Below are positions 1-57,158 of a stretch of 64,000 nucleotides of DNA, in pieces. Origin of the DNA: Homoserinibacter gongjuensis (GTDB lineage: Bacteria > Actinomycetota > Actinomycetes > Actinomycetales > Microbacteriaceae). Under the pieces are notes generated by a model. The model worked only from the letters and a program-made list of their open reading frames with translations. It ran no database searches and was not told where the DNA came from. Within the stretch, counting starts at the first letter, position 1, and each line of letters opens with the position of its first letter. Both the position numbers and the translations under genes were made by a program. Location: positions 1,984,001 to 2,048,000 of the forward strand of contig NZ_BSVA01000001.1 in NCBI RefSeq assembly GCF_030161875.1, given 5' to 3'.

Positions 1-494
1 AGAACAACCTGTGCTGCGCCCCCGTGGCTCTCGGGCGATCTCGACCCGAGCCTCGTCGACACCCGCACCAAGGTCGTCGGGCGCGGTCTTCCGCCCCGCG
101 ACCCGTCGGAGCCCGTGTTCTTCCCCGGCGGCCCGCCCGAGCACGTGAGCGGATGGGTGCTGCTGCTCGCCGACGGCAACCGCGTCATCGTGGAGGGTCC
201 CGTCGTGGTCGGCCGCAAGCCGTTCGAGGTCGAGGGTTTCCGGGCGCCCAACTGCTCGCCGTCGAAGACCGTGAGAAGACGGTTTCGAAGAACCATGCCA
301 TCCTGCTGCCCTATGACGGCGGCCTCTTCGTGCTCGACCTGAACTCCACGAACGGTGTCTCGGTGGTCGCCAACCGCCGCCGCACCCCGGTCACCTCCAC
401 CGAGTTCTCGCCGGTTCCGGATGGCGCGGTCGTCGAGCTCGGTTCGTACCTGCTCGGGGTCGACTACGTGGCAGCAGCCGCCCCCGAGGCCTGA
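1..494 (+). CDS. FHA domain protein, 5' end outside window (frameshifted)
   Basis: The gene is open from base 1, so its start lies upstream of the window. The first frame gives a linker and then the first FHA strands (GWVLLLADGNRVIVEGPVVV, GRKPF). The second frame gives QLLAVEDREKTVSKNHAILL and LDLNSTNGVSVV, the Ser/His and Asn-Gly signature of a phosphothreonine-binding FHA fold. The two frames join if one G is restored at 234-236. The C-terminal half closely resembles the FHA protein at 27205-27815 (QLLAV..SVSK.HA..LDLNSTNGV.VV). The two therefore bracket the type VII locus. Presumably it reads phosphorylation by the kinase at 2675. The role is inferred from the domain only. Confidence 0.8.
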   Translation, partial: NNLCCAPVALGRSRPEPRRHPHQGRRARSSAPRPVGARVLPRRPARARERMGAAARRRQPRHRGGSRRGRPQAVRGRGFPGAQLLAVEDREKTVSKNHAILLPYDGGLFVLDLNSTNGVSVVANRRRTPVTSTEFSPVPDGAVVELGSYLLGVDYVAAAAPEA

Positions 495-506
495 TCGCGC
501 GCTCGC

Positions 507-562
507 ATGGGGAGTGCTCCCCATCGGTGTCGCGCCGCACCGGGCCTGCGGCTTGCTAGCGT
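507..562 (+). promoter_or_regulatory. Palindromic operator A and -10 box upstream of the PP2C gene
   Basis: ATGGGGAGTGCTCCCCAT (507-524) has perfect 8-bp arms around a 2-bp centre. A -10-like TAGCGT lies at 557-562, with 32 nt between palindrome and hexamer. The same palindrome, spaced by 32 nt, precedes the gene at 5197; a third copy spaced by 22 nt precedes the WXG100 gene. The copies and spacing are seen directly. Function as an activator-type binding site is inferred. Confidence 0.65.
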
Positions 563-588
563 TGCACGGACTGCGGAGGGCGGAAAAG

Positions 589-1440
589 GTGTCGGTGGAG
601 ACGCGCGAGGACTTCGCGATCGGCGACGCGACAGTACGCCTGCGCCACGCCGGCCACAGCCACGTCGGCGCCGTGCGCTCCAACAACGAAGACAGCTTCC
701 TCGCCGCACCGCCCTTCTGGATCGTCGCCGACGGCATGGGCGGGCACGCCCACGGCGACCTCGCGAGCCGCTCGGCCGTCGAGGTGTTCGACCGCATCCG
801 CACTGAAGCCGCCGCGAATGCCCGCAGCGTGCTGCGCGCGATTCAGGATGCCAACGCCGCCGTCGTCGGACTTCGTGACGGCGCGCTCTCGGGCACGACG
901 CTCACCGGGGTGGCGATCGTCGACATCGACGGCGCAGGCCCGCACTGGATGACCTTCAACGTCGGCGACTCCCGCACCTACCTGTGGGATGGCCGCCGCC
1001 TCGAGCAGCAGAGCATCGACCACTCCGCCGTGCAGGAGCTCGTCGACGCCGGGGTCATCACCCCCGAGGACGCCGCCGTGCACCCGCAGCGCAACGTCGT
1101 CACGCGCGCGCTCGGCGCCGAAGACGAGATCGAGCCGGACGTCTGGCTCGTGCCGCTGCGCGGGCGCCAGACCTTCCTCCTGTGCAGTGACGGCCTCACG
1201 AAGGAGCTCGACGACGACGAGATCGCACGCATCATCGTCTTCCACGACCAGCAGGCCGCGCGTGAGCCCGAGGGGCCGAGCCTGGCCGAGCGGCTCGTCG
1301 GCGCGGCGGTGGCGGCTGGCGGACGCGATAACGTGACAGTCGTGGTCGTGGAATCGGAGGTTCCCGAAGGGGCGTTCGATCCGGAGGAGACGATCGACCG
1401 CGACCCGCGACTTCTCGAAGACACCATGCCGAGGGCCTAG
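589..1440 (+). CDS. PP2C-family protein serine/threonine phosphatase
   Basis: This is a 283-residue metal-dependent phosphatase. The family's metal-binding motifs are in order: RSNNEDS near the N-terminus, VADGMGG with Asp about residue 48, SGTTL, NVGDSRTY, LCSDGL and GGRDNVT with Asp about residue 247. No membrane segment follows, so it is a cytosolic enzyme. The GTG at 589 is chosen because GGAGGG at 575-580 is well spaced and the protein then begins just before the conserved core. It heads the block with FHA proteins and the kinase at 2675, which it probably opposes. Unlike most long genes here it has no frameshift. Confidence 0.93.
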   Translation: MSVETREDFAIGDATVRLRHAGHSHVGAVRSNNEDSFLAAPPFWIVADGMGGHAHGDLASRSAVEVFDRIRTEAAANARSVLRAIQDANAAVVGLRDGALSGTTLTGVAIVDIDGAGPHWMTFNVGDSRTYLWDGRRLEQQSIDHSAVQELVDAGVITPEDAAVHPQRNVVTRALGAEDEIEPDVWLVPLRGRQTFLLCSDGLTKELDDDEIARIIVFHDQQAAREPEGPSLAERLVGAAVAAGGRDNVTVVVVESEVPEGAFDPEETIDRDPRLLEDTMPRA

Positions 1441-1443
1441 AAC

Positions 1444-2675
1444 GTGACGCACCGCTACACCGCCGCGAGCGACGGCTGGCTCGCCTTCATCACGCCCGCC
1501 CGGCAGCTGTTCGTGGCGGGCGACCCGGATGCCGCGATCATCGACCGGCTGTGGACCCGCATCCGTGACGAGCGCGGCCCTGCGGGCGTGCTCGAGACGC
1601 TCGCCGCGAACGGCCTGTTCAGCACCCCGCCGTTCGCCTTCATCGAGCTCGGCGACGGCGGTGTGGATGTGATCGTGCGCGGTGACGCCGTGGTGCGCGC
1701 GGGCGCCGAGCACGTCTCCGGATCGGGTGCCGCGACCTGGATCGAACGTCGCCTTCCCGGCGGCTCGGTCGGGGTGACGCTCGCCGGCTCGGGCTCGCTG
1801 GAGCTGCCCATCGAGGCGGGCGTGGTGCGTGCCGCCGCGTTCGCCACCGGCACCGCGCTGCCGCGGCAGGCGGCCGCCCCGGCCGCGACCCCCGAACCCG
1901 CCTTCGTCGACGTGCCGCCCGACGCCACCATCCCGCTCGCGCAGTTCATCGCCGAGGAGGAGGCCCGTGCCCGCGCGGCAGAGGCAGAAGGGCCGACCGG
2001 CGTCTCCGAGGAGACGGTCGTCGAGCTGCCCGATGCCGCGGCGCCGCCCGCGACGCCGACCACCGCCGAGCCGCCTGCCGTCGGCGCGGGCGCGGCCGAC
2101 GCGGGTGCGGCATCCGGCGACGGCTACGACTACCTCTTCGGTGAGACCGTGTACCACTCGGTGCAGGATGCCGCGGTGCGCACCGAGGCCCCCGCAGACG
2201 ACGAGACCCCCGCCGAGCAGCAGGCGGCCGAGCAGCCGGCCGAGGGCGACCACGACGGCAGCACGGTGTTGGCCTCCTCGATCACGCGCACCGGCCGCCA
2301 GCGTCGGCCGCGCGGGAAGGCGGCGGCCCCGGCTGCGCCCGCGATCGCCGTCGTGCTGCCCACCGGCGCGCGCGAGCCGCTCGAGGAGGCGCTCGTGCTC
2401 GGCCGCTCGCCGAGCGTGTCGGGCGTGCCCGGCGGGCAGCTGCCGCGACTCGTGACCCTCTCGAGCGGCGACCAGGACATCTCGCGCTCGCACGTGCGCA
2501 TCGCCCTCGAGGGTGGCACCGTCGTCGTGACCGACCTGCACTCGCGCAACGGCACCACGATCGTGCTGCCGAGCGGCGAGACGCAGAAGCTGCGCGGCGG
2601 CGAGCCGACCCCGTGATCCTCGGAACCGTGGTCGACCTCGGCGGGGGAGTCGAACTGCGGCTCGAGGAACTCTGA
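1444..2675 (+). CDS. FHA domain protein with long acidic/Ala-Pro linker (frameshifted)
   Basis: This reconstructed 410-residue protein has an unassigned N-terminal domain (about residues 1-140). A low-complexity Ala/Pro/Glu linker follows, then a C-terminal FHA domain from about residue 300 with GRSPS, DISRSHVRI and DLHSRNGT motifs. The apparent stop at 2616 results from one C missing in CCCC at 2609-2612. Restoring it continues the FHA domain through VILGTVVDLGGGVELRLEEL to a TGA at 2673-2675, which overlaps the kinase ATG. The GTG start lies three bases after the phosphatase stop, consistent with one operon. It probably links kinase signalling to the secretion locus, which is an inference. 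Confidence 0.85.
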
Positions 2676-4377
2676 TGCGCCGGCCCGCGTCGACACCTCC
2701 CGAGCTGCCCGGGCACACCTTCGTGCGGCTGCTCGGCTCGGGCGGGTTCTCGGACGTCTTCCTCTACGAGCAGCAGCTTCCCCGGCGTCGCGTCGCGGTC
2801 AAGGTGCTGCTGCTCGACGAGCTCACGCCCGCGAATCGCGCCGCGTTCGTCGCCGAGGCGAACCTCATGGCGCAGCTCTCGGCGCACCCCTACATCGTCA
2901 CGATCTACCACGCCGATGTGGCGTCGGATGATCGCCCGTACTTCGTCATGGAGTACTGCTCGGGCCCGAGCCTCGCCGAGCGCTACAAGCAGGCGCCGCT
3001 GCCGGTCGTCGACGCCCTGCGCACCGGGGTGCGGCTCTCGAGCGCCGTGCAGACGGCGCACCAGGCCGGCATCCTGCACCGCGACATCAAGCCCGCCAAC
3101 GTGCTCGGCAACGACTACGGCTGGCCCGCGCTCACCGACTTCGGGATCTCGTCGGCGGTCGACGATGCGCTGCCCGCGCACACCACGACGGTCGCCGGCG
3201 CCCTGGCCGACACCGGCACGGGCGGCACGAGCGGCCAGGTGGGTCTCTCGGTGCCGTGGTCGCCGCCGGAGATGTTCGAAGACGACCCCGACCCCGACGT
3301 GCGCAGCGACGTGTTCTCGCTCGCGGCGACCATCTGGACGGTGCTCGCGGGGCAGACGCCCTTCGAGGTGCGCGGCCGCGGCAACGGCACCCTCGACCTC
3401 ATCGGGCGCATCGAGCGCGGCGCCATCACGCCGATGGACCGCACCGATATCCCGCGGTCGCTCGTCGCGGTGCTGCAGAAGGGCATGGCGACCGAGCGCG
3501 AGGATCGCTTCGCGAGCGCCCTCGACTTCGGCCGGGCGCTGCAGCGCGTCGAGATGGAGCTGGGCTACGCGCGCACCGAGCTCGAGGTGCCCAACCTGCG
3601 ATTCGACGCGCCCGAGCGGCCCGCGGATGTCGGCGGGGCCGACGAGACGCGTGTGCGGCAGGTCGCGACGATCGAGGCGCAGCCTGTGGTGGCGGCCCCC
3701 GTCGCGGCGGCACCCGCGCCGTCGACCGTCGACGAGACGCGCGTACGCGGCACGACGACCGTCGACGCCCAGCCCGCCGCGGTATCGGCGCCGCCCTCGG
3801 TCGCACCCGCGCCGCCCAGTGCGGCGACGCCCCGCGGGACATCGGATGCGCTGCCCACCGAGACGGTCGTGCGCCCGCGCGGCCCGGTGGCGCCGCCCCC
3901 GAGACGCCGGCCGCTCAGCCGGCCCCGGCATCCGCTCCGCGATCCCGTCGGGGCCTCGTCGTCGGCATCGTGGTGGGAGTGGTCGTGGCCCTCGTGGCGG
4001 CGGCCGTGATCGTCGGCATCGTGCTGTTCGGCGGCGACGCCGCGGATCCGACGCCGAGCCAGACGCCGCAACCCTCCACGACCGCCGCCGTTCCGCAGCG
4101 CATCGAACCGCCGGTGCTCGCAGCCGATCCCGTGCTCGACGGCGCCACCGTGGTGTTCGCCGTCGAGAACCCGGCCGCGGCCGACGGCGACACGCTGATC
4201 TGGAAGCTCAGCAACCGTCCCGACCAGCCCGAACAGCATCCGGTGGGTGCCGACGGCGTCATCCGGGCCGACGGCTACGCCGGCAGCCCGCTGTGCGTCG
4301 ATGTGCTCATCGTGCGCAAGGGCAAGACCTCCGAGCCGCTGACCGCCTGCTACCCGCCGGCAGGGAGCGACGGATGA
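2675..4377 (+). CDS. Transmembrane serine/threonine protein kinase (frameshifted)
   Basis: This is a 567-residue PknB-like kinase. The N-terminal catalytic domain shows the Gly-rich LLGSGGFSDVF, the catalytic Lys in VAVK (residue 43), HRDIKPAN (Asp 137), DFG (Asp 155) and WSPPEMF. A Pro/Thr-rich juxtamembrane region contains two DETRVR repeats, DETRVRQVAT and DETRVRGTTT, which are plausible phosphoacceptor sites for FHA binding. A single membrane helix (GLVVGIVVGVVVALVAAAVI, about 427-450) precedes an extracytoplasmic domain of about 115 residues with two Cys. One C is missing in CCCCC at 3896-3900; restoring it joins kinase and membrane parts. The ATG overlaps the upstream stop, and its own TGA overlaps the next ATG. 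Confidence 0.9.
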
Positions 4378-5196: not shown

Positions 5197-8100
5197 ATGA
5201 TTGCCAACACACGCGGGGGCTTTGAGGTGATCGCGGAGGTCTGGCGCGCGCGTCGCAAGACCATCGCATCCGCCACCGTCATCGCGCTCATCGCGGGCGG
5301 CACCCTGACCGTCGCGGCGTTGCACCCCGGGTTCCCGGTGAGCGATGTCGATCTCACCTCGCGCGATGTCTGGGTCACCAACGGCTCGGAGCTGCTCGGC
5401 GGCCGACTCAACAAGCAGATCGACGAGCTCAACGGCTCGATCACCACGGCGTCACCCGCGAGCGATCTGCTGCAGCACGGTGACGCCGTGTTCGTGGTCG
5501 ACCCCGACAACGACCGCCTCGAATCGGTCGACCCCGCGACCACCTCGATCACGAGCTCGGTCGACCTGCCCCCGGACGCCGAGGTCGCCTACGGGGAGAG
5601 GTCATCGCCGTCGTCTCGCACGGCAAGCTGTGGGCGCTCTCCTCGGTCGGCGACCTGCGGCTCGACGTCGTGTCGCAGCCTCCGCTGCTCGACCTCGGCG
5701 TGGGCGGGCACGCGGTCGTCACGGCGGAGGGCGAGATCGTCGCGGTGTCACCCGACGACGGCGTGCTCTACCGCATCCCGACGCTCGCCGACGCGCCCGT
5801 AGAGTCGGCGTTCCCGAAGATCGGCGAGTTCCAGCTCGCGGCGATCGGCGACCGCGTCGTCGCGCTCGACGAGTCCACCAACGAGCTCGTGCTCGACGAC
5901 GGCACGGTGCGCCCGCTCGGCGAGGACCGCGCGCTCGAACTTCAGCAGAGCGGCCCGGCATCCGATCACGCCATACTCGCGACGGGCACCGGACTGCTCC
6001 GAGTGGCCTTGGGCTCGGGCGACGTCGAGGTCGTCGACGCCGAGGTCTCCAGCGGCGCGAGCGACGCGGATGACGTGGCCGCCCCGGTGAACCAGGACGG
6101 GTGCGCGCACGGCGCGTGGGCGCAGGCCCAGCGCTATGTGCTCGCGTGCGCGGGAGCCGACGCGCTCGTGCAGGACATCGACCAGCCGACCGCCGGCAAT
6201 CGCCTCGAGTTCCGGGTGAACCGCTCGATCGTCGTGCTCAACGATCTCGACAACGGCAACGTCTGGCTGCCGGCCGACGACATGCGCCTCGTCGACAACT
6301 GGGACGACGTGACGCCGCCCGAGGAGCAGGAGACCGAGGAGGAGGGCGACGACAAGTCGGCCCTGCAGTCGTTCGAAGACACCCTGGCCGAGCGCACCGA
6401 CGAGAACCGCCCGCCGACCGCGGTCGACGACGAGTTCGGCGTGCGCCCGGGCCGCACCACGATCATCTCGGTGCTCGACAACGACACCGACCCCGACGGC
6501 GACGTGCTCATCGTGGCCGACCACGGCGAGGTCGCCGAGAGCACCGGGCGACTCGACTACATCGACGGCAACCGCGCCCTGCAGTTCACCCCCGCCGAGG
6601 GCTTCGTCGGCACCGTGCAGTTCGACTACACGGTCGACGACGGTCGAGGGGTCGCGCGAGTGCGCACGTCGTGGCGCGCGTGGTGTCGGATGCCGTGGGG
6701 CAGCCACCGATCGAGTTGCGGCGTTCCGCGGTCAGCGTCGAGCTGAACCAGACCATCGACTACAACGTGCTCGCCAACTGGCGCGACCTCGACGGCGACG
6801 ACCTGTTCCTGGTGGGCGCCGCCCCGACCTCGGGCGACCTCGTGCGGTTCACCCCCGACGGGGCCATCACCTTCACGCACCAGACCTCCGAGCTCGGCGA
6901 GAAGGAGGTGCAGTTCCAGGTCACCGACGGCACGGGCGATCCCGTGACGGGAACGCTCGTGGTCGACGTCAAACCCGCCGGGTCGCTCGATCCGGTCGGC
7001 ACGCCCGACTTCGCCACCGCGTTCGTGGGCGAGCAGGTCACGATCTCGCCGCTCGCCAACGACCTGTCGCCCAACGGCTCGCCGCTGCACATCACGGGCA
7101 TCGAGGATCCGGGCAGCGGCACGGTCGCGAGCCTCGACACCGACGACGACACGGTGCGGTTCCAGGCGGATGCGGCGGGCGTCCACTACTTCACCTACAC
7201 ACTGCAGGCGGGACCCACCGACAGCGTGGGCATCATCCGCGTCGACGTGCGGGAGGTGCCCGCGGATCTCGCGCTGCCGCCCATCGCCGTCAAGGACACC
7301 GCCTACCTGCGCCCCGACCAGCCGACCACGGTGTCGGTGCTCTCGAACGACGTGAGCCCGACCGGGCGCATCCTCGCCGTGCAGTCGGTGAACGTGCCCG
7401 CCGAGGTGCAGGCCAAGGGTGTCGTGGTCGAGCTGCTCGAGGCGACGCTCATCCGGGTGACCGCCCCGCAGGCGCTCACGAGCCAGGTGGGCTTCAGCTA
7501 CACGATCTCCGACGGGCTCAACACGGCAACTGCGGGCGTCACGATCGTGCCGGTTCCGGCGCTCACCAAGCACCAGCCGCCGATCGCCGTCGACGATCAG
7601 GCCACCGTGCGCGCGGGCGACATCGTGACCGTGCATGTGCTGGACAACGACACGCACCCCGACGATTCGCGGATGTTCCTGGCCGACGAGCTCGTCACGC
7701 AGCCCGCGGACGGCATCGCCTTCGTGGGCGGCGACACCGTGCGCTTCCAGGCGCCCCGAACGCCGGGGCAGTACACCGCCTCCTACCGCGTGCTCGACCC
7801 CTATGGTGAGAGCGCCGCCGCGACGGTGACGTTCACCGTGACGCCCGAGGACGAGGAGGGCAACCGCGACCCCGACCCGCGCACCGTGACGGCGCGCGTG
7901 CTGGCGGGTGGCACCATCCGCGTCGACCTGCCGCTCGACGGGGTCGATCCCGACGGCGACTCGGTGTACCTGCTGCGCCTGCCCACCGGTCCGACCCTCG
8001 GCACGATCGCCGAGCAGGGCGACGACTTCCTCGAGTACACGGCCGCCGAGGGGTGTCGGGCACCGACGAGTTCAGCTACCAGGTGTACGACGCGTACGGC

Positions 8101-10859
8101 GCGACCGGTACGGCGACCGTGCGCATCGCCGTCATCCCGCCCCCGGATCAGCTCATGAACCCCAACCCGGTGCCCGACAGCATCTCGGTGCGCCCGGGGC
8201 GGATCGCGCAGGTCGACCTGACGGCGAACGACTCCGACCCGCAGGGCTCGCCGATCAAGGTCGCCGACGAGCTCATCGACGTGCCCGACGGCGTCGAGGC
8301 CGAGGTCGTCGATGGGCGCTACCTCGTGCTCACGGCGCCGAACGAGGAGGGCGCCTTCTCGCTGCGCTACACCCTCGAGAACGAGTTGGGTGGCTCGGCG
8401 AAGAGCTACGTGCAGGTGCAGGTGACCCCGGATGCGCCGCTGCTGCCCCCGAGCGCCACCGATCTCACCCTGACGCTCAAGCAGATCGCGGGCAAGAAGA
8501 ACGTCACGGTCGACATCTTCGACGGCTACGCCTTCAACCCGGCAGGCACCAACGCCGAGCTCGAGGTGAGCCTCGAGGGGCCCAATGCGGACGCCGCCGC
8601 GCTCGTGGAGGCGCAGCACGGCAAGATCGTCGTGACGCCGGGGAGCGCCGCCAGGCGATCGCCTACCGGGTCACGAACGTCGACGACGAGCTCGCCGCGA
8701 CCGCCTTCATCGTCGTGCCGCCCGCCGTCGACGACTCCTACGACGACCCGCCCTTCATCGACCCGAACCTGCCGATCCAGTACGTGTCGATGAACGAGTC
8801 GCGGGAGTGGAAGCTCTCCGACCTCATCAAGGTGCCCTCCGGCCGTGCGGCCTGGATCCCGGATGCCTCGAGCGTCAGCTCGATTCAGAGCGACGGTACC
8901 TCGAACTACGTCGACAAGGACACCATCCGCTTCCAGGGCGCGCTCGACTACCGCGGGCCGGCATCCGTGAGCTTCACCGTGACGGATGGGGCGTCGAAGG
9001 ACGACCCGAAGGGCAACACGGTTCCCCTCACCTTGCGCATCGTGGTGGGCGACCCGGAGTTCCGCGACACCCCGCCGACGTTCACGACCCCGAGTCTCCA
9101 GGTCGAGGTGGGCGAGCAGACGACCTTCGATCTGCGCTCGGCGACGGGCCACCCGAACCCGACGATCCTGCAGCAGGTCGGCTACTCCGAGCTGACGGGG
9201 ACGAGCACGCGGCTGACGGGCGCCATCGACGGCTCCACCCTGACCATCTCGACGCCGCGCAACACCCCCAAGGGAACGACCTTCACCCTCGGTGTGACGT
9301 TGCGCTGGGATAAGTTCACGGTGCCGGGCACGATCGAGGTGACCGTCGTGGGGTCGACGAGACCCCCGCCCTGGCCGTGGCCGACAGCTACGAGACGCAG
9401 CGCGGAGACGGCGCCGTCGTGGCGAGCCCGCTCGTGAACGACTCCAATCCGTACGCCGCGACGGGGGAGCCGCTCACGATCGTCGGCGCCACGGTGCAGA
9501 ACACCGGGGAGCCTGCCGGCGTCACCTTCACCGCGGACACCGTACGCGTCACGCCCAACCCGGCGCTCAAGTCGGGCACGATCGTCGTGGTCTACACGAT
9601 CCAGGACGCCACCGAAGATCCCGATCGCGAGGTGAGCGGCACGATCACGGTCGTCGTGAGCGATGTGCCCGACGCGCCGCAGAAGCCCACGGTGCCCGCG
9701 CAGGGCGACGAGGGCACCGTGCAGCTCGGCTTCCAGGCGCCCGCCTCGAACGGCAAGGAGATCACCGCCTACGAGGTGCGCTCGAACCCCTCGGTCGCGA
9801 CGCCGGCGAACTGCGCGCCGCCGTCGTGCCTCATCACGGGCCTGACCAACGGCACGAGCTACCAGTTCTCGGTGCGCGCGATCAACGAGCACGGGCCCGG
9901 TGCCTGGTCGGTCTGGTCGAACGCGGTGATCCCCTACGGCACGCCGGGTACCCCGTCGAGCGTTGCGCTCGCCTACGGCGATCAGTGGACGGGATCCAGC
10001 GACAGCGGAGCCCTGAACGGCAGCTGGAGCAGCGTGAACGCCAACGGCGGGTCGGTGACCTTCCACTGGCAGCTGCTGCGCGGAGGAGCGCGGTCTCGGG
10101 CAAGTCGGGCACCACCACCGGAACGACGACGGGCGCGATCTCGGGTCTCGGCGCGGGGTCGTACACGCTGAGCGTCTACGCGGTGAACTCGGGTGGCAAG
10201 CAGGGAGCCGCGGGAACCTCGGCGGCGAGGAGCATCACGGCACAGGGCACCCCAGGCCGGCCCTCGGTGTCGGCGACCGTGAACTCCGCGTATGCGCCGA
10301 ACGGTCGGATCACCTGGAGTTGGGGTGCGGTCACGGCGTCGCCCGGCGGTTCGGCGAACATCAGCTACCGGGTGAGCACCAACGGCGGCTCGAACTGGAC
10401 GAATGTCGGCACCGACCTCAGCTACAGCCGCTCGGGTCTCGGGGCGGGCAGCCACTCGCTCGTCGTGCAGGCGGTCAACAAGTCGGGCGCGGGCCCCTCC
10501 TCGGCCGCCTCGAGCGCGACGATCCAGCCGCAGCCGAGGAACCCGAGTGTCGAGATCGTCGGCACGAGCTCGACGACCTACACGTGCTCGAACGGCAACT
10601 ACGCGTGCAAGAAGATCGCCGTGCACTTCACCGACACCGGCGGCACCTACAACGTGGCGATCCAGGTCGAGGGTGGCGGCACCTCCAACACCACCTCGAT
10701 GCCCGGATCGGGAACGCACCTCACGCAGTCGTTCCAGGCCTCCACGGGGGCAAGTCGGTGCGCGTCGTGGCGAGCGGCGGCAGCGACGGCACGCTGTACT
10801 CGCGCTGGTACAGCTCGAGCGAGTGGGACAGCTTCCGCAACAACGGTCCGTTCTACTGA
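5197..10859 (+). CDS. Giant membrane-anchored Ig-like/fibronectin III protein (7 frameshifts)
   Basis: Reconstruction gives 1,889 residues. A short cytoplasmic N-terminus and one membrane helix (KTIASATVIALIAGGTLTVA) are followed by a repetitive beta domain of about 350 residues that reads like a propeller (DVWVTNGSELLGGRLNKQID). A long series of Ig/cadherin-like modules with VLDNDTDPDGD-type motifs comes next, then fibronectin-III-like domains at the C-terminus. Frameshifts near 5595, 6650, 8052, 8641, 9352, 10084 and 10748 each close with one added base, and the total then divides by three. ATG 5197 is used; GTG 5227 is an alternative, and neither has a strong ribosome site. It stands first in the operon with MoxR, DUF58, transglutaminase-fold and EssC genes, so it may be an extracytoplasmic part of the machine. 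Confidence 0.85.
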
Positions 10860-10920
10860 GCCGCGCCGCGAGCACCGCTACGACCATGACCCCGGCGACA
10901 ACGAAGAGAAATTGAGGAAC

Positions 10921-11889
10921 ATGCCCGTCACGCAGGAGCAGGCGACCTGGTTCGCCGACGCCTTCCAGAAGCTCATCGCCAACGTCGACAAGGCGATCGT
11001 CGGCAAGGACCAAGTGATCAAGCTCGTGCTGACCGCGCTCGTCTCCGACGGGCACGTGCTGCTGGAGGACTTCCCCGGCACCGGCAAGACGGTGCTGGCC
11101 AAGTCGCTCGCCAACACGCTCGACGGCTCGACGAGCCGCATCCAGTTCACGCCCGACCTGCTGCCGTCGGACGTCACGGGGGTGCAGATCTACGATCAGT
11201 CGAAGGGCCGGTTCCAGTTCCACCCGGGACCGATCTTCGCCTCGATCGTGCTCGCCGACGAGATCAACCGTGCGTCGCCCAAGACCCAGTCGGCGCTGCT
11301 CGAGGTCATGGAGGAGGGCATCGTCACGGTCGATGGCGAGGGCCACGCGGTCGGCGCGCCGTTCCTCGTGATCGCCACCCAGAACCCCGTGGAGCAGGCC
11401 GGTACCTACAAGCTCCCCGAGGCGCAGCTCGACCGCTTCCTCATCAAGACGAGCCTCGGCTACCCGGATGCCAAGACGGCCGTCGGTCTGCTCATGGACT
11501 CCTCGACGCGCGCGCGTGCCTCGCTCGTCTCGCCCATCATCAAGCCCGAGTCGATCGTGGCCATGTCGGCGCTCGCCTCGGAGGTGCACGTCGACGAGGC
11601 CGTCATGCAGTACCTCTCCGACATCGTGGATGCCACACGCTCGCACCGGGACGTCGCGCTCGGGGTGAGCATGCGCGGTGCCATGGCGCTCGCCCGCGCC
11701 GTGAAGACCTGGGCGATCGCCGCGGGCCGCACCTACGTCATCCCCGACGACGTGCGCGAGCTCGCCGTGCCCGTGCTCGCCCACCGGCTCGTGATCGACC
11801 CGGAGTCGGACTTCGCCGGGGTCAAGGCCGAGGACGTCGTCTCGCGCATCCTGCTCGACATCGAACCGCCCGCCTACCGCGCCGCCTGA
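10921..11889 (+). CDS. MoxR-family AAA+ ATPase (type VII-linked copy)
   Basis: This is an intact 322-residue MoxR ATPase. Walker A is FPGTGKTVLAKSL (Lys 56), Walker B is ADEINRASPKTQSALLEVME, sensor 1 is VIATQNPVE, and the arginine-finger region lies in LPEAQLDRF. A GAGG sequence six bases before the ATG serves as ribosome site. MoxR proteins are chaperone-like ATPases that commonly pair with DUF58 or VWA proteins, as here with the next gene. A paralogue with the same partners lies at 56113. The likely role is remodelling or assembly of the DUF58/transglutaminase-fold complex. That is inference from family and neighbours. Confidence 0.93.
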   Translation: MPVTQEQATWFADAFQKLIANVDKAIVGKDQVIKLVLTALVSDGHVLLEDFPGTGKTVLAKSLANTLDGSTSRIQFTPDLLPSDVTGVQIYDQSKGRFQFHPGPIFASIVLADEINRASPKTQSALLEVMEEGIVTVDGEGHAVGAPFLVIATQNPVEQAGTYKLPEAQLDRFLIKTSLGYPDAKTAVGLLMDSSTRARASLVSPIIKPESIVAMSALASEVHVDEAVMQYLSDIVDATRSHRDVALGVSMRGAMALARAVKTWAIAAGRTYVIPDDVRELAVPVLAHRLVIDPESDFAGVKAEDVVSRILLDIEPPAYRAA

Positions 11890-11891
11890 GC

Positions 11892-13176
11892 ATGACGGCA
11901 GCCCCTCTCGAGAACGCATCCGCGCTCGCGCGGCCCTCGGCGTGCGCCTGCGCCGGTTCGCGCTCGGGTCGGGCCGTGTGCTCGCGATCGTCGGCCGCGC
12001 GATCTGGCGGATCGCCGGGCCCGTGCTGCGCGTCGTGACCCCGGTCGGCTGGGTCGTGATCGGCCTCGCGGTGCTCGCGCTCGGGCTGAGCGCGATCTTC
12101 GCGTGGCAGGAGTTCACCTTCCTCGGCTTCGTGCTGCTGGCTGCCGTGCTGGTCGCCGCGTTCTTCCTCATCGGGCGCTCGAGCTACGGCGTCTTCGTCG
12201 AGCTGAATCCTCGCCGCGTCGTCGTGGGAGACCGCGCCATGGGGCGCATGGTCGTCACCAACACGGGCGCCCGCAAGCTGCCGCCCACGCGGATGGAGCT
12301 TCCGGTCGGGCGCGGCGTCGCGGAGTTCCAGCTGCCCACCATGGCACCCAAGCAGGAGCAGGAGGAGCTCTTCCAGGTGCCGACCAACCGCCGTGCGGTG
12401 ATCGTGGCGGGGCCTGCCGAGTCGATCCGCGGCGACCAGCTGGGGCTGCTGCGCCGCGCGGTGAAGTGGGCCGACCCCGTCGACCTGTTCGTGCATCCGA
12501 AGACAGTGCGCCTCGTCTCGAGCGCGGCCGGCCTGGTGCGCGACCTCGAGGGCCAGGTCTCGAACAAGATCACCAACAACGACCTCGCCTTCCACGCGCT
12601 GCGTCCATATGTGCCCGGCGACGACCGCCGCTATGTGCATTGGCGCACCTCGGCGCGTATCGGCCAGCTCATGGTGCGGCAGTTCCAGGAGACCCGACGG
12701 TCGCAGATCATCGTGGTGGTGCCGACGGCCGCGCGCTACTACGCCGACGAGCAGGAGTTCGAGCTCGCGGTGTCGGTGGGCGCCTCGATCGCCGCCCAGG
12801 TGATCCGCGATGGCACCCAACTCGACGTCGTGAGCGAGCGAGGCGGCTGGCGCACCCGCACGGTCACCTCGATGCTCGACTCGTCGTGTCGACTCGAGTA
12901 CGGCGACACCGGGGGTTCTCCTCGTTGCGTGAGCTCGTGCGCGAGCGCACGCGGCGGCTCGCCACCCCGAGCGTGGTCGTGACGGTCGGAGGGTCGGCGA
13001 TGTCGGCGGGCGACATCCGCACCGTGCAGACGGTCTTCGGGCCCGACACCGGCCACATCGGGGTGCTCATCGAAGCGGGGGCGCAAGCACGCCTCGGCAA
13101 GGTGGGCGGCACGCTCGTGTTCACCGTGGGTCGGCTCGACGACCTGCCCGCGCTCTTCCAGGGGCTCGCCTCGTGA
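11892..13176 (+). CDS. DUF58 membrane protein (type VII-linked copy, frameshifted)
   Basis: A DUF58 protein of about 412-428 residues has two adjacent membrane helices near the N-terminus and a cytoplasmic domain. That domain contains the family motif VPGDDRRYVHWRTSARIGQLMVRQ. ATG 11892 follows the MoxR stop by two bases but needs one restored base before about 11940. GTG 11942 needs none, so the exact start is uncertain. A second indel lies in GGGGG at 12911-12915; restoring a G gives DTGGFSSLREL and reads to the TGA at 13174-13176. The stop overlaps the next GTG. DUF58 proteins act with MoxR ATPases, but the molecular role is not well established. Confidence 0.87.
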
Positions 13177-15601
13177 CCGCGCCGGTTCAGGATGCCGCGG
13201 TCGCGCCCGCCGCAGCGGCTCGCCGCGGTCTCGCGCTGCCCTCCGGCCGCACCTGGGTCGACGTCGTCGTGCTGCTCGTGCTCGCGACGCTCGGCGTGCT
13301 GGGCTTCGCGCCGTCGTACGGCGGCTACAGCTTCCTGCTCGCCGGGCTCGGCGGGCTCGCGCTGGGGGCCGTGACCGGCATCCTGACCTCGATGCTGCGC
13401 TTCGGCGGACTGCTGACCCTCGCGGCGGCGATCGTCGGCTACTTCGCGCTCGGCCCGGCGCTCGCCGTGCCCAGCCAGTCGATCTGGGGCGTCGTGCCCA
13501 CCCTGCAATCGCTCGCGAGCCTCGCGATCGGCACGGTGTTCGGCTGGGCCGACCTGCTGACCCTCTCGACCCCGGTGGGGGCGCCCGCCTACATCGCGGT
13601 CGTGCCCTTCGCCGCGAGCTGGCTCGTGGCGCTCGTCTCGACGGTGCTCGCGACGCGGTGGCTCGCCGCGCGGCCGCGCACCGCGTGGCGGTTCGCGATC
13701 GCCGTCGTGCCCGCCTTCGCGCTCTACCTCACCGGCATCCTCGTGGGCACCTCCGAGGCCTACCAGGCCGGCATCCGCGGCGCGGTCTTCGCGGTGCTCG
13801 TGCTCGTCTGGCTCGGCTGGCGTCGTCCGGTCGGGGGTGAGGCGGCGACGGCGATCGGGTCGCTCCGCACGCGCAAGATCGTCGGCACAGTGCTCGTCGT
13901 GGCCGTCGCGGTCGTCGCGGGAGGCGGCGCCGGGTTCTGGTTCTCGCCCGCGAAGGATCAGCGTTTCGTGCTGCGCGACGAGATCGAGCCGCCGTTCGAT
14001 CCGCTCGACTACCCGAGCCCCCTCGCCGGCTTCCGGCACTTCACCAAGCAGGTCACCGACGACGACCTCTTCACCGCGACGGGCCTGCAGCCGGGCGACC
14101 GCATCCGCATGGCCACCCTCGACTCCTACACGGGCAAGCTGTGGAACGTGACGGGCGCGGATGCCTCCACGGGCGGTTCCGGTTCGTACGAGCTCGTGGG
14201 GCGCAACCTGCCCGCCGCGCCGCTCGTCACCCCGGTGCCGCACGACGAGGTCGCGATCACGATCTCGGGCTACCGCGACGTGTGGGTGCCGGGCGTCGGC
14301 TACCCCCGCGACTTCGCCCTCACCGGCGGACCGTCGGCGGGCCTCTCCGACGAGCTGCGCTACAACGCGGCCACCGGCAGCATGGTGCTCACGACGGGTC
14401 TGCGAGAGGGCGACAGCTATGTCGTCGACGCGGTCACCCAGGAGCAGCCGAGCGCCGACGCGCTCGCCGAGGTGCCGATCGCGGCCGTCGAGCTGCCGCC
14501 CGTGCAGAGCGTTCCGGATGTCGTGACGGCGAAGGCGCAGGAATGGGCGGGCACCGCGACCTCGCCCGCCGCGCAGCTGGAGGCGATCCGCCAGGCGATC
14601 GTGACGCAGGGCTACCTGAGCCACGGCCGCGCCTCGGACTCGGCGCCCTCGCGCGCGGGCCACGGGGCCGACCGCATGAGCGAGCTGCTCGAGCGGCCGC
14701 AGATGGTGGGCGACGAGGAGCAGTACGCCTCGCTCTTCGCGCTCATGGCGCGCAGCCTCGGCTATCCGGCGCGCGTCGTCATGGGCTTCGCCCCCGAGGT
14801 CGTCGACGCGGGCTCGCCCGTCACCGTGACCGGGGATGACGTCACGGCCTGGGTCGAGGTGGCCTTCGACGGCGTGGGCTGGGTGAGCTTCGATCCCACG
14901 CCGGACGAGACCGACATCCCGCAAGACCAGGTGCCGAAGCCGCAGAGCGAGCCACAGCCGCAGGTGCGACAGCCGCCGCGCTCCGACAAGGAGCCCGAGG
15001 ACCTGCTCACGCCCGTCGAGCTCGAGCAGCAGGACGACGACGAAGACGACCTGCCCTTCGCGCTGCCCGGCTGGGTGTACGGCATCGCGGGGGTCTGCTC
15101 GGCCTCGCGGCGCTCGTCTTCGTGCCGCTGCTCGTGATCGCCGCTGTGAAGTCGCACCGCATGCGCAAGCGCCGCCGGGGCACGACCGCCGACCAGGCGG
15201 CCGGTGCCTGGGAGGAACTCGCCGACCGGTACTCCGAGCTCGGCTACCACGTGCCGCCGAAGCTCACCCGGCCGCTGCTCGCGACCCGACTCGAGCAGCA
15301 GTTCCCGGCGACCGAGCAGCAGGCGCCGCCGCGACTGCGGGTGCTCGCCACCTCCACCGACGAGCTCGTCTTCTCGGGTCGCGAACCCGCGCCCGACGAG
15401 GCGGAGTCCGTGTGGGCCGACGCCCTCGGCGCCGTCGAGGTGGCACGCAGCTCCGCCGACGGGCGCACGCGCCTGCTGAGCCGCTACCGCGTGCGGTCGG
15501 CACGCGACCTCGCGGCGCGCCTGACCGCATCCGGCACCACCACGACCACTGGCAGCACCACCACTGGCACCACCACCGCCCCGCGAAGGAGCGACAGTTG
15601 A
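13173..15601 (+). CDS. Transglutaminase-fold membrane protein lacking catalytic Cys and His
   Basis: This reconstructed 809-residue protein has several N-terminal membrane helices, a periplasm-side domain, a transglutaminase-like core, another membrane helix and a cytoplasmic tail of about 150 residues ending in a Thr-rich stretch. The core aligns with the paralogue at 58426. Where that copy has GYCVHYAS, this one has GDEEQYAS (Glu 515 at the Cys position). Where that copy has DDLHAW, this one has DDVTAW (Thr 558 at the His position). It therefore looks catalytically dead and may be structural. One G is missing in GGGGG at 15089-15093. The GTG start and the TGA stop overlap the neighbouring genes. 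Confidence 0.88.
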
Positions 15602-18600
15602 AACTCAAGCTCACCCTGCAGCGCCACTCGGGACCCGAGGCCGACATCGTCGTCACCGCGGATGCCGGAGCCACGGTCGGCGACGTCGCCGCGGGCATCC
15701 GCGGTCGTGACCCGTACCTCGCGAAGCTCGGTGCGGGAACCGGGGGACCTGTCACCCTGACCGTCACGGATGCCGGCGGCACCGCGCCGCGCGTGCTCGA
15801 CACCGACTTCGCCATCGCCGAAGCCGGTATCGGCTCGGGCGCCTCGATCGCGATCGTGCCCGAGGGGGCGGCCGCGGCACCGGTCGCCGCGGGCCCGGCG
15901 GCGCGCCTTGTGGTGGTCGAGGGTCCGGATGCCGGCACCGAGTTCCCGCTCGCGATCGGCACGGTGTTCATCGGTCGCGACGCCTCGATGAGCGACCTGA
16001 CGCTCAGCGACCCGCTCGTCTCGAAGCGGCACGCGCGCGTCGACGTGTTCAGCTCGACGATCCGTTTCGTCGACCTCAACTCGGCCAACGGCCTCGAGGT
16101 CGACGGCGGCGTCGTCACCCGCGTCGACCTGGAGGACGGCGACACCCTGCGGCTCGGCGACACCGTCGTGCGCGCGGCGATCGCGGCGCCCACCGTGGCG
16201 GCATCCGATGGTCCGCCGCCCGGACCGATCGCGTTCAACCGGTCGCCGCGGGTCGAGACGCGCTACCCGGGCACGGAGTACGAGGCGCCCGCGCCGCCCG
16301 TCGAGCAGGATGCCCAGCCGTTCCCGTGGATCTCCCTGGTGGCGCCGGTCCTCGTGGGCGGGACCATGTTCCTGCTGTTCCCCGCCCGCGGTGCGCAGAT
16401 GCTCGTGTTCGTGGCTGCGGCACCGCTGCTCATGATCGGCACCTGGCTCACCGCACGCGCGACGCGCAAGCGCAAGCGCAAGCTCGACATCGAGCGTTTC
16501 GACGCCCGCGCCGCCGAGCTCGAGAAGACGCTCGCCGAGGAGGCCGAGAAGGAGCGCGCCATCCGCCGAGCCGAGAGCCCCTCGACAGCCGAGGTGTACC
16601 AGCAGGCGATCGAGCTGGGGCCGCTGCTCTGGACGCGACGCCCCGAGCACTGGCAGTTCCTCTCGGTGAACCTCGGCCTCGGCACGATGGAGTCGCGCAA
16701 CCGGGTCACGAGCACGAAAGAAGACACGGGGCTTCCCGAGTACGCCGCGCGCATCAAGCAGACCCAGGACGCCTTCCGCTACGTCTCCGACGTGCCGGTC
16801 ACCGAGAACCTCTACTTCTCGGGCGCCCTCGGCATCGCCGGCCCCCAGCCGCTCGCGGCGGATGCGGCGCGCGGCGTGCTCGTGCAGCTCACGGGCCTGC
16901 ACTCGCCCGCCGAGCTCGTCGTGGCGGCCGTCGTCTCGAGCACCTGGACGAACGAGTTCGAGTGGCTTAAGTGGCTGCCGCACACGGCTTCCCCGCACAG
17001 CCCGCTCGAGGCCGTGCACCTCGCCAACAGCCAGGCGACCGGCGGTGCGCTGCTCTCGGCGATCGAGGAGCTCATCGCCGCGCGCGCCAAGGATCAGGAA
17101 CTGCGCGGCGCCAAGATGCTCGAGAACTCGGCGCTCGTCGCGGGTGCCGCGGTCGGCGACGGCGCCGACGACGTCGCGCCCCCGCCCGCCGCGACTCCCG
17201 CCGTCGTGCTTCTCATCTCTGACGACGCACCCGTCGACCGGGCCCGCCTCGTGCAGGTGGCGGAACGCGCGGCCGACGCGGGCATCTACCCGATCTGGGT
17301 CTCGGCGACGCAGCAGCAGCTGCCGGCCGTCGCCCGCACCTATCTCGCGGTCGACTCCGAGGGCGCACGCGTCGGCCTCGTGCGCCTCGGCGACGCCATC
17401 ACCGATGTGCGTCCCGAGCCGGTGAGCCGCGAGCAGGCCCTGTGGTTCGCCAAGCGCCTCGCACCCGTGACGGATGCCGGAGCCCTCGTCGAGGACTCCA
17501 GCGACCTGCCGCGCTCGATCATGATGCTCTCGCTCATCGGCCCCTCGCTCGCGACGAGCCCGTCGGCCGCGGTCGGCCGCTGGCGCGAGAACGACTCGAT
17601 CCACGATCGCTCCGGCGGCCCTCTCGTGCGGCGTCGCGCGGGGAAGCTGCGCGCGATCGTCGGATCGGCGGGGGTCGACGCCATGCACCTCGACCTGCGC
17701 ACCCAGGGACCGCACGCGCTCGTGGGCGGCACCACGGGATCCGGCAAGTCCGAGTTCCTACAGGCCTGGGTGCTCGGCATGGCGGCCGAGTACAGTCCCG
17801 ACCGCGTCACCTTCCTCTTCGTCGACTACAAGGGCGGCTCGGCCTTCGCCGACTGCGTCAACCTGCCGCACTGCGTGGGGCTCGTCACCGACCTCAGCCC
17901 GCACCTCGTGCGCCGCGCGCTCACCTCGCTGCGCGCCGAGCTGCACTACCGCGAGCACCTCTTCAACCGCAAGAAGGCCAAGGACCTGCTCGACCTCGAG
18001 AAGCGCGGCGACCCGGATGCGCCTCCCGCACTCGTGCTCGTGATCGACGAGTTCGCGGCGCTCGCGGGCGAGGTGCCCGAGTTCGTCGACGGCGTCGTCG
18101 ACATCGCCCAGCGCGGGCGTTCGCTCGGCATCCACCTCATCATGGCCACCCAGCGCCCCGCGGGCGTCATCAAAGACAACCTGCGCGCCAACACGAACCT
18201 GCGGATCGCGCTGCGCATGGCCGACGAGTCGGACTCGATGGATGTCGTGGGCGACAAGATCGCCGGCACCTTCGATCCGTCGATCCCGGGTCGCGGCATC
18301 GCGAAGACCGGCCCCGGGCGCCTGACCCCGTTCCAGTCGGCCTACGCGGGCGGCTGGACGAACGACACGCCCGCCCCGCCGAGCGTCGAGGTCGCCGAAC
18401 TGCGCTTCGGCGCCGAGCACCAGTGGGAGCTTCCCGGCCGGGACGAGGCCGAGAGCGCCGAAACCCAGGCGGACCCCGGCCCCACCGACCAGGCGCGTCT
18501 CGTCGCGAACCTCATCGCGGCGGCGGGCGAGGCCCGCATCCCGGCCCCCGGCGCCCGTGGCTCGACGAGCTCGCGCCGGTGTTCGACCTCACCCGGCTGC

Positions 18601-20085
18601 ACCAGCGCACCGATGCCGAGCTCGTGCTCGGTGTCGTCGACCTGCCGCAGCTGCAGAAGCAGCAGGAGGTCGTGTTCCGCCCGGATGTCGACGGCAACAT
18701 CGCCTATTACGGCGCGGGCGGCGCCGGCAAGACCGTCGCCCTGCGCACCCTCGCCGCGGCCGCGGGCATCACCCCGCGCGGCGGCCCCGTCGACGTGTAC
18801 GGGCTCGATTTCGGCACCGGGGCCTGCGGATGCTCGAGGCGCTTCCGCATGTCGGCTCGATCGTGTCGGGGGATGATCCCGAGCGCGTCGTGCGCCTGCT
18901 GCGCATGCTGCGCGGTGAGCTCGAGCGACGCAGCGAGGACTACACGGCCGCCGACGCCGGCTCGATCGTCGACTACCGCCGCATCGCGGGCAAGCCCGAC
19001 GAGCGCCGCATCCTGCTGCTCGTCGACAACTTCCCGTCGTTCAAGAACGACTTCGAGATCGGCGCCACCCGAGCCCCTGGTATGGCGTCTTCCAGCAGAT
19101 GCTCGCCGAGGGGCGCGGGCTCGGCATGCACGTCGCGATCACGGCCGACCGCCCGGGCAGCGTGCCCACCGGCATCTCCTCGGCGTTCCAGCGTCGCGTC
19201 GCGCTGCGACTCGCCGACGAGGGCGGCTACCTGCTGCTCGACGCGCCCGCCGACATCCTCTCGCCGTCGTCGCCTCCCGGACGCGCCGTGATCGACGGCG
19301 CCGAGGCGCAGCTCGCGATCGTGGGCGGTGACCCCGGCGTCGCCGAGCAGGCGAAGGCGCTCGGCGCGCTGGCCGAGGCGATCGCCCGCACCGGGCGCGC
19401 CCCGGCCGCCGGGGTCGGCACGCTCGGCACCGAGATCCCGCCCGCATCGCTGCCCGCCGACGTCGGCGGCCTGCCCGTGCTCGGCGTCTCGGACGACACG
19501 CTCGCCCCCGTCGGCTTCGAGCCCTCGGGCGCGATGGTGCTCTCGGGGCCGCCCGCCTCGGGCCGCACCAACGCGCTGCGCTGGCTCATCGCATCCGTGG
19601 AACGCGCGCACCCGAAGGTGACGCGCTACTACTTCGGGTCGCCGCGCTCGGTGATCGGCCAGCTGCCCGGCTGGGAGGCCACCGCGCTCACGGTCGAGGA
19701 TGCCGGATCGCTTGCCAAGGAGGTCGCCGCCACGATCGCCGAGACAGGGGCGGGCGAGAAGATCCTCGTGGTGATCGAGCAGATCGGCGACTTCCTCTCG
19801 ACCTCGGCCGACTCGGCGCTCGTCGAGATGATCAAGGCCGCGAAGCGCAGCGACCACCTGCTGATCGCCGAGAACGAGAGCGGCGGCTGGGGCTCGTCGT
19901 GGCCGCTGCTGCAGGAGGTCAAGGCCGCACGCACGGGCTTCCTGCTGCAGCCGGAGTCGATGGAGGGCGACACGATCCTCAAGACCTCGCTGCCGCGGGT
20001 ATCGCGTGCCGACTTCCCGCCCGGACGCGGGTTCTTCATCGCCCGCGGCAAGTCGATGCGGGTGCAGCTGCCGCTCGTCGAGTAG
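15598..20085 (+). CDS. FHA-EssC/EccC-like type VII secretion ATPase (3 frameshifts)
   Basis: Reconstruction gives 1,496 residues. An FHA- or ubiquitin-like domain (1-95) and a canonical FHA domain (about 100-190: FIGRD, SKRHARV, LNSANG) precede two membrane helices (about 241-282), followed by three FtsK/SpoIIIE-type domains. Domain 1 is intact (GTTGSGKSEF, Lys 717; LVIDEFAAL). Domain 2 has GAGGAGKT but VDN instead of DE in Walker B. Domain 3 has GPPASGRT, with Arg for the Walker Lys. This layout resembles Firmicutes EssC more than split mycobacterial EccCa/EccCb. Frameshifts lie at 18545-18549, 18819-18822 and 19074-19077. TTG 15598 overlaps the upstream TGA and has AAGGAG six bases before it. 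It is the presumed motor for the WXG100 proteins downstream. Confidence 0.92.
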
Positions 20086-20194: not shown

Positions 20195-20491
20195 ATGGCC
20201 AACCTCAACGTCACCTACGACGACCTCCGCGACGCCGCCCGCCGCCTCCAGGTCGGCAAGGACGACCTGCACACCAAGCTGACCGACCTCTCGAACCTGA
20301 TCCACGAGCTCACCGCGAACGGCTTCCAGGCCGAGCAGTCCTCTGCCGCCTACCGTGACTCGTTCGAGCAGTTCCGCACCGGCACCTCGCAGGCCATCGA
20401 CGGCCTCGACGGCCTCGCCAACTTCCTCGTCTCCGCTGCCGACGCGCTGCAGCAGACCGACGAGGGTCTCGCCAACGCCATCCGCGGCTAG
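20195..20491 (+). CDS. WXG100-like secreted protein (EsxA type, WXG replaced)
   Basis: This 98-residue, all-helical protein has the size and helix-turn-helix shape of WXG100/Esx proteins. It lies directly downstream of the EssC-like ATPase. The turn reads LTANGFQAEQSSAAY, where a typical member has W-x-G; the Trp is replaced. The C-terminus (LQQTDEGLANAIRG) has no YxxxD/E signal of mycobacterial substrates. AAAGGAG at 20184-20190 provides a good ribosome site. The gene is probably highly expressed from operator C. The most likely role is secretion co-substrate or structural Esx protein. No N-terminal signal peptide is present, as expected for this family. Confidence 0.87.
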   Translation: MANLNVTYDDLRDAARRLQVGKDDLHTKLTDLSNLIHELTANGFQAEQSSAAYRDSFEQFRTGTSQAIDGLDGLANFLVSAADALQQTDEGLANAIRG

Positions 20492-55831: not shown

Positions 55832-55849
55832 GCGCCTTCACGTGCCGCT

Positions 55850-55882
55850 CGTTGTCGCCTCACGAGCTTCGAGGCGACAACG
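55850..55882. terminator. Hairpin after cofE
   Basis: CGTTGTCGCCTC (55850-55861) pairs perfectly with GAGGCGACAACG (55871-55882) across a 9-base loop, 19 bases after the cofE stop. No T-run follows, which is usual at this GC content. The remainder of 55883-56112 shows no gene. Confidence 0.65.
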
Positions 55883-56112
55883 GGTGGCAACTGAGCGCCG
55901 GGTGCGGGGCCGCATCCTCGCGCGCCACCTTTTGGCCACCCGCGCCTGCAATCCCTGGTGCGTGTCGCCGAACGCTGCAGCGTTTGGCACAAGGGGGCCC
56001 GGATGCGGCGGGTCGTTCCGGATGCGGCCCGGCGCCGCGGGGGTCGGCGGCCAAGCTGACCGTCATCCTCAAGGAGGGTGACGGATCCACCACGCCGTGC
56101 AAGACTCGGACG

Positions 56113-57138: not shown

Positions 57139-57158
57139 ACCGCACCGAAGCCGCCGCC

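Follow-up and report, generated by a model that had tools for sequence, protein, structure and literature searches.

A probable fixed pseudoenzyme of the TgpA transglutaminase family in a kinase- and MoxR-containing locus of Homoserinibacter gongjuensis, next to a T7SSd-like ATPase

According to the available parts of the respective papers, TgpA of Pseudomonas aeruginosa (PA2873) is encoded by the third gene of a co-transcribed three-gene cluster, has an intact catalytic triad and shows measured transglutaminase activity (PMC3507681). The PFNA operon of bifidobacteria has the order pkb2, fn3, aaa-atp, duf58 and tgm, and an eight-gene PFNA order is described for Bifidobacterium longum, among others (PMC8430577, PMC6803598). 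The published core of the type VII secretion system subtype d (T7SSd) consists of five parts (Garrett et al. 2024, PMC11217815). TsdC is described as an EssC-like ATPase with an N-terminal FHA domain and conserved phosphothreonine residues, and TsdI as a giant Ig-like protein with a signal peptide and a C-terminal helix; the system was reported to be without any ubiquitin-like protein (PMC11217815). Inactive transglutaminase folds occur in Rad4/XPC, EPB42 and the N-terminal domains of polymorphic toxins, where binding or scaffolding is known or proposed (PMC10318531, PMC3482391). Dead transglutaminase folds, the MoxR-DUF58-transglutaminase operon, PFNA and T7SSd are thus all already known. Described here is a transglutaminase-like protein encoded on a stretch of 64,000 nucleotides of the genome of Homoserinibacter gongjuensis (contig NZ_BSVA01000001.1, positions 1,984,001 to 2,048,000; the whole stretch is called the window). 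With a probability of roughly two in three, it is a fixed pseudoenzyme of the TgpA (MoxR-DUF58-transglutaminase) family, in which the catalytic Cys was lost once and which selection maintains in a non-catalytic role within a kinase/phosphatase/FHA/MoxR module often found beside a T7SSd-like ATPase.

Like TgpA, the window protein is a membrane protein with a TgpA-type domain outside the membrane; the extracytoplasmic part of its predicted model matches the TgpA structures 6g49 and 6g4h with Z 23 over 249-252 residues and a root-mean-square deviation of 3.1-3.2. Unlike TgpA, it is without the catalytic Cys and His, and its gene usually lies near genes for kinase, phosphatase, FHA and secretion proteins. 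The locus has the order FHA, PP2C, FHA, Ser/Thr kinase, giant protein, MoxR, DUF58, transglutaminase-like protein, FHA-EccC/EssC ATPase and WXG100 protein. From the kinase to the transglutaminase this order is identical to that of PFNA, the gene for the giant Big_9/fn3 protein lying between those for the kinase and MoxR, and the same is true of a B. longum-like genome (G056). Unlike the published PFNA, the transglutaminase is Cys-less in the window as well as in G056 (Ser/Thr), and the window locus goes beyond the PFNA order with an EccC-type ATPase and a WXG100 gene. Like T7SSd, the window has a WXG100 protein, an FHA-EccC ATPase, a Ser/Thr kinase and a giant Ig-like protein; in this counterpart of TsdI Ig-like domains were found, and both of its ends fall in broken reading frames. 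The MoxR, DUF58 and transglutaminase genes set the window apart from T7SSd as published: these, as well as PFNA, are absent from the available main text of PMC11217815. The available text of PMC8430577, on PFNA, contains no mention of type VII, T7SS, EccC, FtsK or WXG100, and in the open subset of PubMed Central no paper was found with both 'PFNA' and 'type VII secretion'. Like Rad4/XPC, EPB42 and the polymorphic toxins, the window protein has a transglutaminase fold without the full triad; unlike it, those proteins are of other families and architectures, and none is described in a MoxR-DUF58 operon in the available text.

The first-pass annotation, made from the DNA letters of the window, had claimed that relative to a paralogue at 58426 the catalytic Cys was replaced by Glu and the His by Thr, both away from a frameshift, and this is borne out. 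The open reading frame (ORF) from 13173 contains GDEEQYAS and DDVTAW, both in frame, and the ORF at 58426 reads GYCVHYAS and DDLHAW. The Cys position of the window protein is Glu515 and the His position Thr558; the third triad position is kept as Asp574 (codon at 14892). The triad of the paralogue is Cys478 (codon 59857), His524 (59995) and Glu540 (60043), and its cluster (55762-60653) served as internal control. The domain of the window protein matches Pfam Transglut_core with 65.5 bits (E 6e-18; cut-off 23), as does that of the paralogue well over the cut-off, and a match at E 0.001 was obtained in 68/68 relatives (alignment A2). The TgpA_N region scores 22.8-29.1 bits in the window against a cut-off of 30, with matches at E 0.001 in 53/68 relatives. 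In the predicted model the TgpA fold is retained, with a predicted local distance difference test score of about 95 in the domain, a helix that starts at residue 515, and residue 558 in a strand.

The gene is read in two frames (13173-15137, then 15122-15601); the change lies between 15084 and 15122, at least 240 bases downstream of both substituted codons, and the part beyond it encodes a hydrophobic segment and a tail. Several frames are also found in the DUF58, the EccC and the giant upstream gene of the window, which suggests sequence or assembly error rather than gene death. The genome is assembled as one contig with a listed completeness of 89.8%, and frame changes in several genes near the locus despite the single contig are the pattern of an error-prone long-read assembly. 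Loss of Cys and His as a sequencing artefact was ruled out: independently sequenced relatives are Cys-less too, so Glu515 and Thr558 are not assembly errors. In the window's genus, Thr stands at the His position in 8/8 sequences (window and L007-L013), and the Cys position is Glu in five and Gln in three; a ninth genome of the genus (G001) is without a close orthologue of the window copy. The genome itself has three Cys-less copies: that of the window, one at 2.40 Mb with EccC, and one at 1.48 Mb. The last belongs to a third cluster (L161; G000, 1.4725-1.4924 Mb) of MoxR, DUF58 and a Cys-less transglutaminase plus PP2C, with no EccC match in that stretch. The single TgpA-type copy that has both Cys and His is the one at 58426, between which and the end of the window no kinase, PP2C or EccC-type neighbours were found.

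Domains were read from related loci with a domain profile, and identical cores were collapsed (229 raw hits to 194). Transglutaminase hits that lack a letter at either position were left out of the counts; both halves of L165 and row L189 are among these. The catalytic Cys is missing from 162 of the 194 non-redundant domains and present in 32, all of which keep the His. At the Cys position the Cys-less domains have Asp (68), Glu (43), Gln (18), Ala (16), Gly (9), Ser (7) or Pro (1); 55/162 keep the His, and 85/162 have Asp at the third triad position. On a FastTree tree calculated without the two catalytic columns, the Cys-less and the Cys-bearing sets are the two sides of a single branch (Shimodaira-Hasegawa support 99). 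Parsimony inside the Cys-less set gives 32 changes for the Cys column and 34 for the His column, never to Cys. Judged from these sequences and on the tree used, the catalytic Cys was lost once, long ago. The conserved Glu/Thr pair that the first-pass annotation had looked for in orthologues holds locally, with Thr in all eight sequences of the genus; there Glu alternates with Gln, and other pairs are common elsewhere (Asp-His, Gln-Thr, Ala-Thr/Ser, Gly-Glu/Gln, Ser-Gln). No same-locus orthologue with Cys and His was found among the loci read. A substitute Cys within the fold was rejected, as the domain is free of Cys in 22/22 rows of alignment A1 (window and 21 relatives, duplicate sequences included) and no Cys stands in at the site. 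Cys occurs elsewhere in the domain in 8/162 Cys-less sequences, five of which carry a Cys pair and form one distinct sub-group; in the L161 sub-group (L003, L159, L168, L169, L176) a Cys pair is located between the two ex-catalytic positions.

In the order-level search 69/149 genomes matched at E 1e-20, and in the phylum-level search 58/149 at 1e-10, the weaker matches being mostly of the live (Cys-bearing) form where read. Cys-less forms were seen in three genomes outside the class (G315, G289, G278). The search patterns for loci included GDxEQ (x free), which could favour the Cys-less form; the protein searches were run without this pattern, with a query from the Cys-less clade, and live relatives are under-sampled. 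The GTDB-based sets overlap. A locus titled Stenotrophomonas maltophilia (L089, JACEFY010000193.1) has an actinobacterial-type transglutaminase and PP2C and is probably assembly contamination.

The ratio of non-synonymous to synonymous substitution rates (dN/dS) of the domain is 0.16-0.33 in the eight comparisons with the window and 0.08-0.39 over all listed pairs. Two of the eight are treated as duplicates, the values for L066 and L008 being identical. By this measure, selection on the pseudo-transglutaminase domain is purifying. Simple decay, i.e. a redundant copy losing its function in the strain or genus, is consistent with the frame changes in this and neighbouring genes of the assembly and with the three Cys-less copies of the genome. 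It is very improbable, being opposed by the Cys-less state in 162 non-redundant sequences from many families, dN/dS well under 1, a Pfam score over the cut-off, the match in all 68 relatives and newly conserved positions. These include S483, G485, S493, R501 and D514, conserved in the Cys-less clade and not in the live relatives, and E516, present in 162/162 Cys-less sequences versus 38% of the live relatives; the clade-specific residues are close in sequence to the former active site. This conservation would also fit a rebuilt active site, in which Asp, Glu or Gln at the Cys position, together with Asp514, Glu516, His497, His484 and Ser493, forms a new site, either for a ligand or a metal or for catalysis without a thiol. 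Also in its favour, the His is retained only where the Cys position is Asp (55/68 Asp rows versus 0/94 others), and a small residue stands opposite Glu or Gln in 61/61 rows. However, the Cys-position residue varies among seven amino acids, unusual for a catalytic residue, and when relatedness is taken into account the pairing loses significance (median p 0.5-1, from 4-6 independent pairs on supported branches), so that such a site is distinctly unlikely. Coupling of the two ex-catalytic positions, marked in raw counts, is taken as a lead and not as a claim, because there are too few independent pairs on the tree.

The partner proteins differ in what they have kept. A conserved Asp at the end of a DUF58 stretch, at the metal-site position of vWA-like folds, is present in 22/22 proteins beside live transglutaminases (one gap) versus 21/163 beside Cys-less ones (two gaps). 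MoxR proteins beside Cys-less transglutaminases have the Walker A lysine in 114/114 rows with letters (five gaps) and the Walker B DE in 113/114; these MoxR motif counts include duplicates, whereas the DUF58, transglutaminase-domain and neighbourhood counts are collapsed. In most, not all, of the clade the transglutaminase and DUF58 have both lost key residues and the MoxR ATPase has not.

The neighbourhood sample was limited to loci whose domain is flanked by 5.5 kb or more upstream and 9 kb or more downstream (98 Cys-less, 11 live). The Cys-less loci have MoxR in 96, DUF58 in 98, a kinase in 63, PP2C in 40 and an EccC-type gene in 39 cases, and any of the last three in 79. In the live loci, four of which (L177, L178, L179, L219) are in the window's order, MoxR was found in 11, DUF58 in 10 and kinase, PP2C or EccC-type genes in none. 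Among 59 places in which the distance was taken, with residues read in part of them, an EccC-type ATPase lies within 20 kb in 35; of these 35, it is downstream in 34 and on the same strand in 33. Among 59 relatives, an EccC-type hit is present in all 41 that have a transglutaminase match and in 12 that have none, and six have neither; the 41 include G045 (1.4e-25, just over the cut), added because its residues had been read (L159). These figures, and the possible TTG start of the ATPase at 15598 that overlaps the transglutaminase stop codon, are what would be expected if the pseudo-transglutaminase were a structural subunit dedicated to the T7SSd channel, in contact with the EccC-type ATPase. 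This is nevertheless unlikely, in view of the many loci without an adjacent ATPase, of EccC hits weaker than about 1e-60 that may be other FtsK-like ATPases, and of genome G056.

The phosphoketolase of G056 is nearly identical to PDB 8io6/3ai7 over 365 residues, and 3ai7 is taken here to be a B. longum protein. The G056 cluster encodes a kinase, a Big_9/fn3 protein of 2021 residues, MoxR, DUF58, the transglutaminase, a weak PP2C match, an LRV protein and FHA. It thus contains the whole PFNA order, in the eight-gene form described for B. longum, and the only EccC-type hit of the genome at the E 1e-25 cut is on another contig, in an ORF of 622 residues with FtsK/AAA matches and no FHA match; the module can therefore exist without an adjacent secretion ATPase. 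In the G056 transglutaminase the Cys position is occupied by Ser and the His position by Thr, and its sequence does not support the 'cysteine protease' description published for the PFNA transglutaminase.

The ATPase of the window locus scores 342 bits (E 5e-102) against TIGR03928 (EssC) and 289 against TIGR03924 (EccCa), both below the respective cut-off on what is a broken piece, and its FHA and FtsK_SpoIIIE matches are above the Pfam cut-offs. The FHA domain is located at about 15967-16158, and the last piece of the gene at 19099-20085. In 31 N-termini G124, R125, S140 and H143 are invariant and N162 is nearly so; these five residues presumably bind phosphothreonine. The first about 90 residues before the FHA domain (15598-15880) form a further conserved domain (31 sequences, alignment A3), predicted with good confidence to have the order strand-strand-helix-strand and a last strand. 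Such an arrangement is seen in ubiquitin-like beta-grasp folds. On the basis of this model, the ubiquitin-like protein reportedly absent from T7SSd may be fused to the N-terminus of the ATPase. For residues 1-105 of the ATPase piece Pfam gave no match at E 10, and in structure searches with the N-terminus the matches listed were to the FHA half only. A profile of the N-terminus found FHA and YscD-type proteins among PDB sequences, with one marginal match (3d0f, E 0.21) over the first domain; the ubiquitin-like identity was not confirmed by these sequence and structure searches. In 13 genomes (G001-G008, G014, G016, G029, G031, G033) a shorter EccC-type frame, 899-1052 codons long, follows a transglutaminase match downstream at 3.3-3.9 kb, measured from middle to middle. 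In most of these genomes the frame comes in addition to the T7SSd-like locus, which suggests that each has two T7SS-type loci.

The features of the window are listed in Table 1. The region after the live MoxR-DUF58-TgpA cluster (60806-63712) has long overlapping frames and is probably a single large broken gene.

Table 1. Features of the two MoxR-DUF58-transglutaminase loci of the window, in window coordinates
Feature	Position	Strand	Evidence and remarks
FHA-domain protein at window start	24..494	+	Pfam FHA E 2.5e-6
Phosphatase, PP2C-type	355..1440	+	Pfam PP2C_2 E 1e-8
FHA-domain protein, second	1444..2616	+	Pfam FHA E 2.9e-6
Ser/Thr protein kinase, TsdD / Pkb2 counterpart	2675..4009	+	Pfam Pkinase E 3e-32
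Giant protein with Big_9, cadherin-like and fn3 domains (TsdI / FN3 counterpart)	6101..10171	+	Big_9 E 1.8e-42, fn3 E 2.8e-11; several frames, limits uncertain
MoxR AAA+ ATPase	10900..11889 (start approximate)	+	Pfam AAA_3 E 4e-62; Walker A/B intact
DUF58 protein	11942..13176	+	Pfam DUF58 E 1e-11; two frames; Pro where DUF58 of the live cluster has the conserved Asp
Pseudo-transglutaminase	13173..15601	+	Eight long predicted N-terminal helices, TgpA-like extracytoplasmic region, Cys-less domain (residues 454-575)
Codon of Glu515 (catalytic Cys position)	14715..14717	+	
Codon of Thr558 (catalytic His position)	14844..14846	+	
FHA-EccC/EssC-type ATPase, TsdC counterpart	15598..20085	+	Several frames; FHA E 2e-12, FtsK_SpoIIIE E 2e-29
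WXG100 protein, TsdA counterpart	20195..20491	+	Pfam WXG100 E 8e-14
MoxR of the separate live MoxR-DUF58-transglutaminase cluster	55762..57138 (true start inside the ORF)	+	tblastn 49% to window MoxR, at 56.2 kb
DUF58 of the live cluster	57159..58439	+	Conserved Asp present
TgpA-type transglutaminase with Cys478 and His524	58426..60653	+	Two frames

The window protein is probably a binding or structural part rather than an enzyme. The first-pass annotation had proposed re-use of the domain in the secretion complex, for binding or as a structural element. The fixed pseudoenzyme contained in this proposal is strongly supported by the 162 sequences on one side of a branch, the lack of a stand-in Cys and the purifying selection. 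Its assignment to a secretion complex is less firm: gene neighbourhood is what points there, and many loci are without an adjacent EccC. From the sequences, the tree, the predicted fold and the neighbourhood a mechanism may be inferred in which the membrane-anchored transglutaminase domain would hold a peptide, a wall fragment or a partner protein, for example the giant Ig/FN3 surface protein, uncut in the former active-site cleft. MoxR, acting through DUF58 as adaptor, would assemble or release the pseudo-transglutaminase complex, and the kinase, phosphatase and FHA parts would couple it to signalling and, where present, to the secretion ATPase.

Several observations weigh against the pseudoenzyme reading. 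The tree has long branches, and the placement of L203, L218 and L171 is unsure. The neighbourhood was searched with the window's own proteins, a choice that favours close relatives and the Cys-less side. EccC is within the flank in only 39 of the 98 Cys-less loci and within 20 kb in only 35 of the 59 places, and the sole EccC-type hit of G056 is the distant one described above. No transglutaminase match at the cut used was obtained in 12 of the 53 relatives with an EccC-type ATPase; in two of these genomes the EccC hits are strong (G022, 6e-96; G026, 3e-109), and the EccC-type ATPase therefore does not need the pseudo-transglutaminase. The 21 DUF58 proteins that keep the Asp include L148 (B. 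longum-like), L147 and L149 (same family group) and L161. Finally, 52/162 domains keep the His together with Asp, Asn or Glu, and some unusual chemistry may be present in this His-keeping subset.

A wider reading takes in the whole MoxR-DUF58-transglutaminase machine, which in Actinomycetota would have been turned into an ATP-driven, non-catalytic switch. The rebuilt cleft (conserved around 483-517) would bind a specific ligand, which in turn would gate kinase signalling as well as T7SSd secretion in loci that have it, and PFNA would be the same device, there with the DUF58 Asp kept. This reading is unlikely, the more so as the bifidobacterial DUF58 keeps the Asp.

In the open subset of PubMed Central, as far as its texts were available, no earlier report was found of a fixed pseudoenzyme transglutaminase in PFNA- or T7SSd-type loci, of DUF58 being often altered alongside the transglutaminase, or of PFNA and T7SSd sharing a module. 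A literature search by subtype name found nothing on T7SSd in Bifidobacterium, none of the matches listed for inactive actinobacterial transglutaminases was on this family, and loss of the Cys is not described in the available parts of PMC12067865, PMC1779556 and PMC7159879.

With the window locus, the published T7SSd core and the PFNA operon are seen as overlapping gene sets. Models of the PFNA TGM protein as a cysteine protease or a cross-linker need revision if the transglutaminase partner is indeed non-enzymatic. The pattern of an intact ATPase with disarmed effectors would also allow a clear genetic test of the role of MoxR-DUF58 pairs apart from enzymology.

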